A DNA stretch of 64,000 nt from Enteractinococcus coprophilus. Lineage in GTDB: Bacteria; Actinomycetota; Actinomycetes; Actinomycetales; Micrococcaceae. Shown here piece by piece: positions 46,582 through 50,210 of the stretch. The notes under the pieces were generated by a model that had not been told where the DNA came from, ran no database searches, and saw nothing but the letters and a program-made list of their open reading frames with translations. The translations under genes were made by a program, and so were the position numbers. Location of the stretch: the NCBI RefSeq assembly GCF_006716305.1, contig NZ_VFOU01000001.1, positions 930,001-994,000 on the forward strand, in the 5' to 3' direction. Each line of letters starts with the position of its first letter. Position 1 is the stretch's first letter.

Positions 46582-47319
46582 CTAGAACAATTCGGCGCAC
46601 TGCCGAGGTACACCGGTGGCAAAATAGCGACGCAGTGTCCTTTGCTGCTGGTCGGTGAGGTCTTCCGGCAGCACACACGAGGTCACATTATCAGGGGAGA
46701 CGTGGCGCAGTGATTTTGCCAAATCGGTAATCCGGCCCGTATCCAGTTGCGCATCGGCATCCACGTACGACGTCAACGTTGAAGCCAAGGTCTTGAGCTG
46801 CCCGGCGTCCTGCACTTTCAGTGTTTCCTGTAAGACCGACTGCCAGACGTCGTCGGCACTGAGCGCCGTCGGGTCAGTCAATACCGCGGCGGCCGCACCC
46901 GGAGCGGTTTCCAACTGCGTGAGAAACTCCAAATCCCACCGCATGACATGCTCCATGCGCGCACCCGTAAACGCTTCGACCTCACCGACCGTGCCGGCAA
47001 TGTCCTGAATATCCGTGACCGCCGTGAAATCGCGGGGAAAATTGACGATATCTACCCGACGTCGCCCATCGGCCAGATGGAACACCGACAGAGTTTGGTG
47101 CTCGCCGGCTGCCTCCCCGAAGACGAGAAAGTTCACCGGCCCGCGTGGGGCATCCGAGCCGTCTGGCCGCTGTGTCTCGGTGGGGAAGGGGTCTGTGATG
47201 ACGCCCAGGGGTTGGAAACTGGCACGCAGTGTCGAGATAGCAAACCATGCCGCACCGGCAAAAAGTGCCACCACAATACCCCAAACCCAGAATTTTGTGC
47301 GTCGCGAAGCTGCAGCCAT
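46582..47319 (-). CDS. Degenerate LytR-CpsA-Psr (LCP) family protein
   Basis: 245 residues with a basic N-terminus and one membrane helix (about 8-28), then a short LCP-like domain: PVNFLVFGEAAGEHQTLSVF and VDIVNFPRDF align with the LCP core. In active LCP proteins the first strand is followed by an R-x-D-T motif and later by a KINAAYAYGG segment. Here the first reads EHQT and the second is absent, so the polyprenyl-phosphate glycotransferase site is incomplete. Only the Arg of FPRD is kept. It is divergent from an ALDH-fold gene, 72 bases away. Confidence 0.6.
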   Translation of the reverse strand: MAAASRRTKFWVWGIVVALFAGAAWFAISTLRASFQPLGVITDPFPTETQRPDGSDAPRGPVNFLVFGEAAGEHQTLSVFHLADGRRRVDIVNFPRDFTAVTDIQDIAGTVGEVEAFTGARMEHVMRWDLEFLTQLETAPGAAAAVLTDPTALSADDVWQSVLQETLKVQDAGQLKTLASTLTSYVDADAQLDTGRITDLAKSLRHVSPDNVTSCVLPEDLTDQQQRTLRRYFATGVPRQCAELF

Positions 47320-47391
47320 GTTGCGAAGTCTACTCGAGCCCTTCCGCATGGCACTAATAGCTCAGCTTTGAAATATCGTACGGTTAGAGAC

Positions 47392-48813
47392 ATGACCACT
47401 GGCTCCCACGACACGTTATCCGCCCGGATAGTCGAGCTGAAAGCCTTCGCCGCAACCCGGGCCACCCATTCGCGCTCTTTCCGCATGGATCAGCTCAAAG
47501 GCCTACGCGAAGTTTTCGAAGACTATACCGAGGACATTCAGGACGCCCTGTGGCAGGACATTGGCAAATCAGCGGCCCAGACCGACCAAACCGAATTTGT
47601 TCCCGTCAAAGACGAAATCTCGTATGCCATGTTGCACCTGACCGACTGGATGGAACCCCAGCCCCGCTCCATCCCATACGGTCTGCGCCCCGGCAAGGCC
47701 ATGGTCAAACCCCGTCCGCTGGGTGTGGTGGGTATTGTCGGCCACTGGGCCCACCCGTTTTACACCCTGCTGGCTCCGCTGGTCGGCGCCGTCGCGGCCG
47801 GGAATTGCATGGTGCTAAAACCTTCGATGCATGCGCCACGCACCGCCAAACTGCTGGGCAGCATTCTGCCCGAATATCTTAACCCGCGCTCAATTGTCAC
47901 TGTCACCGGGGGAGCAGAGGCACTGGACGAACTCGTGGCCCAGCCGCTTGATCACCTGTTTTTCACCGGCTCCGAAAGCCTCGGACGACACGTCTACCAA
48001 CGGGCCGCCGCACAACTCACCCCGGTCACGCTGCAGCTGGGCGGCAAATCCCCGGTCATCGTCGTGGATGGTTCCGATTGGAAAACCATTGGCAGGCGCA
48101 TCGCCTACGGCAAGTTCACCAACGCCGGCCAGAGCCTGGTGAGCCCGGATTATCTAATCGCCGTGGGATACGACGTCGCTGCCAAAGTCCAACAAGGCGT
48201 GATCGATGCCATTGAAGAGTTCTACGGACCCAGCCCGGGCGAGTCGAAACAATTTGGTCGGATCATCACCGCGCAGCACACCCAGCGGCTCGTTGATCTC
48301 ATCCGTGCCACAACCAAGGGCGCGGTTGGTGCCACCCCCGCCCGACTCGTGCACGGTGGGAAATACAACATCGAATCTGCATTCTTGGCGCCAACCATTC
48401 TGGCCGATGTGCACCCGAACTCGGCGATCATGCAAGAACAAATCTTAGGCCCGGTCTTACCAATCCTGGTGGTCGACACCTACGATGAAGCCATAGAATT
48501 TGCGAACTCCAAACCTACCGCGCCGGCCGCCTACCTTTTTTCTGAACGACGTCGCATCCGTAAAGACTTCATGCACCGCATCAACGCCGGCGCCGCTGTC
48601 ATGAACGCCACCATTATTCAGACCGTGCTGCCCTCGCTACCGCATAACTTCACCGGCGGTGCAGGGTTTGGCACCTGGGGCGGTCATGAAAGTTTCCGGC
48701 TCTTCTCGCAATATCGCACACACTTCTATAAACCAACGCGCCTCGACACACTGCAAGCCGCCTACCCGCCGGACCCCACCTACGGGCAGCGGATGATTGA
48801 CCGACTCAAATAG
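47392..48813 (+). CDS. Aldehyde dehydrogenase-fold protein lacking catalytic residues
   Basis: 473 residues from ATG 47392; the in-frame extension to 46948 is not coding (it overlaps the LCP gene). It aligns well with class 3 ALDHs (KFTNAGQSLVSPDYL; QLTPVTLQLGGKSPV; ILGPVLPILVV). The catalytic Cys position is Leu249, the general-base Glu is Gln215, the oxyanion Asn of WNYP is Ala120 (HWAHP), and the NAD ribose-contact Glu of EIFGP is Gln350. All four are substituted, while the fold, the GKSP motif and the NAD-fold glycines remain. It is read as an intact pseudoenzyme and not a broken gene. Confidence 0.85.
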   Translation: MTTGSHDTLSARIVELKAFAATRATHSRSFRMDQLKGLREVFEDYTEDIQDALWQDIGKSAAQTDQTEFVPVKDEISYAMLHLTDWMEPQPRSIPYGLRPGKAMVKPRPLGVVGIVGHWAHPFYTLLAPLVGAVAAGNCMVLKPSMHAPRTAKLLGSILPEYLNPRSIVTVTGGAEALDELVAQPLDHLFFTGSESLGRHVYQRAAAQLTPVTLQLGGKSPVIVVDGSDWKTIGRRIAYGKFTNAGQSLVSPDYLIAVGYDVAAKVQQGVIDAIEEFYGPSPGESKQFGRIITAQHTQRLVDLIRATTKGAVGATPARLVHGGKYNIESAFLAPTILADVHPNSAIMQEQILGPVLPILVVDTYDEAIEFANSKPTAPAAYLFSERRRIRKDFMHRINAGAAVMNATIIQTVLPSLPHNFTGGAGFGTWGGHESFRLFSQYRTHFYKPTRLDTLQAAYPPDPTYGQRMIDRLK

Positions 48814-48869: not shown

Positions 48870-49373
48870 TCAGGCGCGTTCCACGCGGTGCAGTTCCACT
48901 TCGATAGTGTTGCCGCTGATGCTAGCGGTCATCATGGTGCAGTGGGGTTGCCGCCGCCGATCGGTGGGAGAACCGGGATTCAACAGCCGCATGCCACCGG
49001 GTGACACAGTATCCCACGGGATATGCGAATGCCCGAAAATCAGCACATCGACGGATGGGAATGCCAGATCCGCCCGCTTCTCCCGCCCTTTGGCCTGACC
49101 GGTTTCATGTATGACTGCCAGGTGCAAATCCTCAACCGTAAAATACGCCACCTCGGGCAGCCTTTCCCGCAGCGTCGGGCCGTCATTATTGCCATACACG
49201 CCATGTAAGACTCGCGCGCGACTCTGGAGGAGCTCGTGGGTGTCGAGATCAATCCAGTCGCCAGCGTGCACAACAATATCGGCCGCATCGATGGCTTGAA
49301 GCACTGCATCCGACAGGCGCTTGGCTCTGGCCGGAATGTGGGTATCGGCTAGCAGTAAAAGGTTGGTGGCCAT
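48870..49373 (-). CDS. Metallophosphoesterase (YfcE/MJ0936-type)
   Basis: A 167-residue calcineurin-like phosphoesterase with the five metal-binding motifs: LLADTHIPA, VHAGDWID, GNNDG, VIHETGQAKGR and GHSHIPWD. YfcE-like enzymes hydrolyse phosphodiesters and small phosphomonoesters. Cytosolic. The gene is monocistronic; the space to the next gene on the right holds a single perfect DnaA box at 49476-49484. Confidence 0.92.
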   Translation of the reverse strand: MATNLLLLADTHIPARAKRLSDAVLQAIDAADIVVHAGDWIDLDTHELLQSRARVLHGVYGNNDGPTLRERLPEVAYFTVEDLHLAVIHETGQAKGREKRADLAFPSVDVLIFGHSHIPWDTVSPGGMRLLNPGSPTDRRRQPHCTMMTASISGNTIEVELHRVERA

Positions 49374-49475
49374 GTCCCCATTATGGCATTGCCAAGGTTG
49401 CCGTCACGGGTGTCCCGCGTTGACCACGTCGGCCAAGGACCAACCCGGAGGTCTGAGTTTTAGGTGCACAGGAAG

Positions 49476-49484
49476 TTATCCACA
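49476..49484 (+). promoter_or_regulatory. Single DnaA box
   Basis: TTATCCACA, a perfect match, lies in the 198 bases between the phosphoesterase and lipoprotein genes. Alone it has little weight; it is listed because the same box clusters at 10703-10834. Confidence 0.4.
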
Positions 49485-49571
49485 ATTCGGACGTGCGCTC
49501 GCCCGTAGGCACCGTTTGGGCCATACGTTGGGAGATAGTCCTAGACCGTCACCCACATGAAAGAGGCAGTG

Positions 49572-50210
49572 ATGACCACCCCAAAGACCAAACTTTCGCT
49601 TATGCTCGGCACGATCGGTATCGCAGTAGCGCTCAGCGGTTGTTCGGCCAGTGAAGCCGATGAGGCCCGCGGTGAGTCATCGCCGAGTGAGCCTGCGGAG
49701 ACTGCAGAATATGTTGCAGCTTCCGCTGAAGGACCGGCAGAAAATGTCCCCGCGCCGGTGGTGCCAGATGCGGTCAAAGAGCATAGTGCTGACGGCGCCC
49801 GGGCGACGATTGAATACTTTTGGGAGGCCGTGGATTACGGACGTCTCACCGGAAACACCGAGCCGATCGAGCAGGTAACCCACTACGTGTGCGAATCATG
49901 TAACCAACTGATTTACAAGTGGGAACAGATTTATGAGGACGGCGCCTGGGCCGTGCTCGACGGCGAAACCAGCATCAAAATCGGCGAGGTGCAACAAAAC
50001 TACACCGAGGAGACCGACGAAGAGTGGACCGCCGTGCTGTTCAAAATGGACGAACCTTCAAGTGAGTTCTATCAAGACGGCGTGCTCAATGAAGATGCGA
50101 GCACCGAAGGCGGCGAATCTGCTGGGTGGTGGGTCGAGATGGTCTACGACGAAGACGACGGCCAGTGGGTCATCGACTGGCTAGACATTGATCCAGCCTT
50201 CGACGAATGA
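49572..50210 (+). CDS. DUF6318 family lipoprotein
   Basis: 212 residues from ATG 49572, with GAGG five bases upstream; ATG 49557 is an alternative. The signal peptide ends in the lipobox LSGC (VALSGCSAS), so the mature cysteine would be lipid-modified and the protein anchored outside. An acidic linker follows, then a compact domain with ATIEYFWEAVDYGRLTGNTE and CESCNQLIYKWEQIYEDGA, matching the DUF6318 group. Function unknown. Confidence 0.85.
   Translation: MTTPKTKLSLMLGTIGIAVALSGCSASEADEARGESSPSEPAETAEYVAASAEGPAENVPAPVVPDAVKEHSADGARATIEYFWEAVDYGRLTGNTEPIEQVTHYVCESCNQLIYKWEQIYEDGAWAVLDGETSIKIGEVQQNYTEETDEEWTAVLFKMDEPSSEFYQDGVLNEDASTEGGESAGWWVEMVYDEDDGQWVIDWLDIDPAFDE

Follow-up and report, generated by a model that had tools for sequence, protein, structure and literature searches.

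The window, a 64,000-nucleotide stretch of the Enteractinococcus coprophilus genome, carries a gene whose product we interpret as a lineage-specific pseudoenzyme of the class 3 aldehyde dehydrogenases (ALDH3) with a binding or regulatory role; we put the probability of this reading at roughly 0.6. Judged from its sequence, the protein is very probably conserved and without aldehyde dehydrogenase activity. Its catalytic machinery has been stripped, yet it is under strong selection, which suggests that the ALDH fold has been put to a new, non-catalytic use, next to what looks like a similarly stripped cell-wall enzyme. The features are listed in Table 1; we refer to the protein as the dead ALDH3, after its missing residues.

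Table 1. Features of the dead ALDH3 locus, numbered from the first base of the window.
Feature	Position	Strand	Remarks
LCP-like membrane protein without LCP catalytic blocks	46582-47319	-	co-conserved in the same seven genomes
Intergenic region of the two divergent genes	47320-47391	.	72 bases
Predicted ALDH3-fold pseudoenzyme	47392-48813	+	473 aa; Pfam match, ALDH3A1 alignment, structure model
A120, replacing the oxyanion Asn	47749-47751	+	codon gcc; A/T in 7/7 orthologues
M146, replacing the adenine-ribose Glu of KPSE	47827-47829	+	Met in 7/7 orthologues
Q215, replacing the general-base Glu	48034-48036	+	codon cag; Gln in 7/7 orthologues
L249, replacing the catalytic Cys	48136-48138	+	codon ctg; L/M/I in 7/7 orthologues
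Q350-I-L352, replacing E-I-F of EIFGP	48439-48447	+	Q350 codon caa, 48439-48441
H418-N-F420, replacing FGG of the PFGGVG loop	48643-48651	+	motif comparison

An ALDH3 fold without its catalytic residues

The original prediction, made from the DNA letters, was of an intact ALDH-fold protein, and this is borne out by a translation without stop or frameshift and by a Pfam Aldedh match of 5.9e-66. The best matches are the class 3 enzymes ALDH3A1/A2, and the protein nests among ALDH3 proteins in sequence and in fold. An AlphaFold model of the monomer has the ALDH3 fold (pLDDT 86, pTM 0.82), and Foldseek returned ALDH3A1 as its top PDB match (TM 0.88); together with the Pfam match, this places the protein in the ALDH superfamily. 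It scores 283 bits against the model for the benzaldehyde dehydrogenase MdlD (NF045701), below the curated cut-off of 550, and falls outside that family. The alignment with human ALDH3A1 (3sza), described beforehand as gap-free over the core, is so over a stretch reaching from ahead of the oxyanion Asn to beyond the Cys, and the Q215-L249 spacing of 34 residues does equal that of E209-C243; downstream of the catalytic core, however, there are a one-residue gap and an insertion of ∼ 10 residues (about 308-318). The model drops below pLDDT 50 at residues 411-428, the former active-site loop. We considered this disorder as a sign of remodelling and dropped the idea, since an active orthologue modelled with the same sequence set is similarly low at 425-433.

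Codons confirm the four substitutions first noted, Leu249, Gln215, Ala120 and Gln350, the last standing where the nicotinamide-ribose Glu would be. The losses extend to F352L, E146M (for the role of the adenine-ribose Glu in ALDHs, see PMC8160307), Y121H, T248S and PFGG to PHNF, the PFGGVG loop now reading PHNFTG. Across the seven orthologues of the genus, EIFGP has become Q[IV]LGP. Residues K143, G193-S194 and G198 are retained, as is the GGK/NAGQ scaffold flanking the former catalytic residues. The Cys, general-base Glu and oxyanion Asn that define a catalytic aldehyde dehydrogenase are therefore missing here, and equivalent losses are found in all seven genus genomes that hold the locus, so neither chance nor sequencing error can account for them. 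On these grounds the protein classifies as a pseudoenzyme, with a predicted lack of activity.

Distribution and origin of the loss

We examined nine Yaniella/Enteractinococcus genomes, and the dead state is present in 7/7 that hold the locus; Enteractinococcus helveticum and Yaniella species are the genus records named among the matches. An orthologous group with equivalent substitutions, as anticipated, thus exists, and its members are 79-92% identical. The two remaining genomes (G001 and G007) lack the ALDH locus, but their assemblies are incomplete and the adjacent HAD gene is also missing, which makes the absence uninformative. In 396 genomes at the level of the order and 396 at that of the phylum, nothing matched as well as the orthologues of the genus, and a scan of genome contigs gave four records, all from this genus.

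Homologues from other Micrococcaceae genera are 36-47% identical, share the fold and retain the full catalytic set; in 40/40 of those inspected, Asn, Glu, Cys and E[IL]FGP are intact. Many of them occupy the same slot, from uracil permease/HAD to amidase-rhodanese-pheA, with largely the same gene neighbours. Because active homologues share the slot and the dead state is genus-wide, the dead gene is most plausibly a positional orthologue whose catalytic function was lost without a change of slot. Homologues with Cys and Glu in related genera, which the original prediction would have counted against itself, do therefore exist, yet as positional orthologues outside the genus they indicate a derived loss and not a refutation. 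Recent duplication of an active slot ALDH3 is not supported, as the slot has the dead copy only and the genus's intact ALDH3 is only distantly paralogous to it.

A maximum-likelihood tree unites the dead sequences in one clade (100/100) and places this clade within the active slot ALDH3s (node 99/100). The clade's stem measures 1.3 changes per site and its tips 0.02-0.13. Six neighbouring genes from the same loci served to calibrate this stem: the stem/crown ratio is 5.4 for the dead ALDH3 versus 1.2-3.5 for the neighbours, and the ratio of outgroup distance to outgroup-outgroup distance is 1.66 versus 1.05-1.19. Within the clade dN/dS is 0.024-0.106, like that of neighbouring genes, with several dS values near saturation; closer pairs give 0.047 (G000-G006) and 0.024 (G005-G008). 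The dead clade has undergone a stem burst of change followed by strong constraint, and the relaxed selection (dN/dS near 1) named as contrary evidence was not seen.

The missing catalytic residues and the long stem might also be expected of a recent pseudogene that merely still reads open. This we consider very unlikely: dN/dS matches that of the neighbours, and seven genomes lack any stop or frameshift at a synonymous divergence of 0.8-1.8. We rejected a decaying pseudogene on the strength of dN/dS and conservation.

Eleven other ALDH-family genes were checked in the genome from which the window comes (L002-L012), and the Cys is kept in all. Two further ALDH-family matches there have one in-match stop each (TAA, TGA; G000:C3:429932-430966 and G000:C1:263479-264570), possibly natural gene ends.

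A second, active ALDH3 in the genus

Eight of the nine genus genomes encode a second, catalytically intact ALDH3, and every genome with the dead ALDH3 also has the active one. The two are about 31-35% identical and lie at unrelated loci. In other genera the best match of the second ALDH3 is usually the slot gene itself, so that the second gene looks like a gain at the level of the genus. In the E. coprophilus genome (L068:9115-10563, contig C4 of G000) it lies in a run with genes for hydantoinase/5-oxoprolinase subunits and for alanine-racemase-like and D-arabinono-lactone-oxidase-like proteins.

Constraint outside the catalytic motifs

The known ALDH motifs, fixed independently of the result, were used as segments for comparing conservation inside and outside the catalytic motifs. 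The odds ratio is 1.18 (P = 0.54) for the dead group, which comprises the seven orthologues in the collections searched; for six active ALDH3 groups, one of them the paralogue of these seven genomes, it is 2.5-3.6 (P = 5e-4 to 3e-6). The non-motif part of the dead group is as conserved as that of an active group of equal divergence. Since constraint has moved off the motifs, this pattern favours a function that depends on the fold as a whole, or on its surface, over a reaction concealed in the old pocket, and with the low dN/dS it lends support to the proposed selection for a non-catalytic role. At 43 positions a residue is fixed that is new to the dead group; no segment of the protein holds a significant cluster of them (lowest P = 0.12), and hence no docking surface is located. 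The catalytic motifs show no significant enrichment of replacements at positions conserved in active enzymes (16/31, P = 0.16), which indicates that the change is protein-wide.

A binding role and its alternatives

On the Yaniella/Enteractinococcus stem the slot ALDH3 lost every catalytic residue, after which the protein came under strong purifying selection with its predicted ALDH3 fold intact. The second ALDH3 gained by the genus may have taken over aldehyde oxidation and so freed the slot copy. The dead ALDH3 would now act as a binding protein, probably a dimer of the ALDH3 type; its surface, perhaps with a residual Rossmann pocket, could hold a partner or a nucleotide-like ligand, making it a scaffold or regulator. 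We favour binding mainly because of the shift of constraint off the motifs and onto the remainder of the protein, and give this binding or scaffold mechanism about even odds.

The old pocket could instead have been rebuilt for a chemistry that needs neither Cys nor Glu, as in histidinol dehydrogenase, which has a related fold. Several pocket replacements (Q215, Q350, L352, M146, S251 and W429-G430) are indeed invariant, His or Arg is present at 121, 200 and 418, and overall constraint is strong. However, conservation does not concentrate in the catalytic motifs. The position of the former nucleophile is L, M or I, His and Gln alternate at 121 and His and Arg at 418, and 419-420 are variable. 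No invariant residue presents itself as a new nucleophile or acid/base, and we regard a new enzyme as improbable.

Alternatively, the protein might signal redox state by still binding NAD(P)(H), perhaps with a preference altered by E146M and by the basic character of positions 147 and 150. K143, G193-S194 and G198 are kept in all seven orthologues, 147 is H or R and 150 is K or R, and loss of this acidic residue has been tied to NADP use in other ALDHs (PMC8160307). Gln could still hydrogen-bond ribose, which makes residual cofactor binding possible. Against a cofactor sensor, the nicotinamide-end contacts E350 and F352 and residues beside the GS turn have changed; a minority option in our view, it is rather unlikely. 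We also think it quite unlikely that the dead ALDH3 is a regulatory subunit that heterodimerizes with the active ALDH3 of the genus and tunes or stabilizes it. ALDH3s are dimers, the potential partner is encoded in every genome concerned, and the C-terminal tail residues K447, D452, T453 and P460 are invariant in dead and active sequences alike; inactive ALDH2 provides a precedent for regulation through hetero-oligomers (PMC10211241). The low identity of the two proteins speaks against such pairing, as do their unrelated loci, the active gene lying with 5-oxoprolinase/hydantoinase genes.

Comparison with known aldehyde dehydrogenases

The closest solved structures, human and rat ALDH3A1, human ALDH3A2 and Staphylococcus aureus AldH (TM 0.88-0.89, 33-35% identity), are active enzymes and, unlike the dead ALDH3, have the Asn-Glu-Cys-EIFGP residues. 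Non-catalytic ALDHs are already known. Human ALDH16A1 is likewise a superfamily member without any catalytic residue and is thought to be a binding protein (PMC10650815, PMC8160307), but this animal protein belongs to another ALDH family and has an extra C-terminal ALDH-like domain, which the 473-residue, single-domain protein lacks. Among bacteria, the second AldDH of GRM1 microcompartment loci has its catalytic Cys replaced by Ser or Pro, is paired with an active AldDH and has been put forward as a scaffold or regulator (PMC4207490). That protein differs in being encoded in microcompartment loci beside the active enzyme, whereas no microcompartment gene was recognized among the neighbours of the dead ALDH3, which has also lost more than the Cys. 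The present case is distinguished by its class (class 3), by a setting outside a recognized microcompartment locus, by a fuller loss and by its clear orthologous relation to active genes.

Few ALDH pseudoenzymes have been described from bacteria, and our search of the open-access literature found none of class 3. The locus offers a clean natural case of an enzyme turned into a predicted non-enzyme without leaving its slot: the change traces to the stem of one genus, active orthologues surround the dead clade in the tree, the genomes concerned also encode a probable replacement enzyme, and the move of constraint off the motifs can be measured. Its presence in the cultured strains Yaniella halotolerans DSM 15476 and Enteractinococcus helveticum makes deletion and biochemistry feasible.

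The divergent LCP-like neighbour

The neighbourhood comprises genes for a uracil permease, a HAD protein, the LCP-like protein, YfcE, a thioesterase, an amidase and pheA (some named by eye). The LCP-like gene, back to back with the ALDH gene, has a conserved start at 47319, although the reading frame can be extended to 47349. The description of this divergent neighbour as a degenerate LCP gene proved accurate: the protein gives no Pfam match above cut-off, PF03816 (LytR_cpsA_psr) included, its homology to genuine LCPs encoded elsewhere in the genome is shown by BLASTP (1e-10) and HHalign (97.6%), and the SDSR, RADT and VRSR...DYxRVxNQQ blocks are missing. It is a candidate second pseudoenzyme beside the dead ALDH3. 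The expected synteny also holds, as the gene is present in the same seven genomes, where the proteins are 52-84% identical and dN/dS (0.11-0.25) indicates purifying selection.

Two relatives with an active ALDH, inspected in detail, differ from this arrangement in having, by eye, a glycerophosphodiester-phosphodiesterase-like ORF (L059:8757-9725, L066:10755-11666) and not an LCP-like gene between HAD and ALDH. The LCP-like gene therefore probably entered the slot on the same stem as the ALDH loss. To find two stripped enzymes encoded side by side is striking, and the adjacent proteins may plausibly be linked in function. More specifically, the ALDH3 and LCP pseudoenzymes, with their origin in one genus, might form a functional pair: an LCP-like sensor anchored in the membrane would work with an ALDH-fold partner in the cytosol to control assembly of the cell envelope or to couple it to redox or aldehyde state, but we consider this a long shot. 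No paper combining pseudoenzymes with LytR-CpsA-Psr was found in the open-access literature.

The intergenic region contains no sigma-70 promoter match, no credible promoter and no Rfam family. A short block just upstream of the ALDH start (47370-47391), TCGTACGGT (or CGTACGGT), is kept in six of the seven genomes, and the region around it is otherwise variable. On the other side of the ALDH gene, a YfcE phosphodiesterase and a putative lipoprotein (48870-50210) are encoded between it and the thioesterase. This interval is variable, with 5-7 kb of other DNA in other species (L055, L056, L057).
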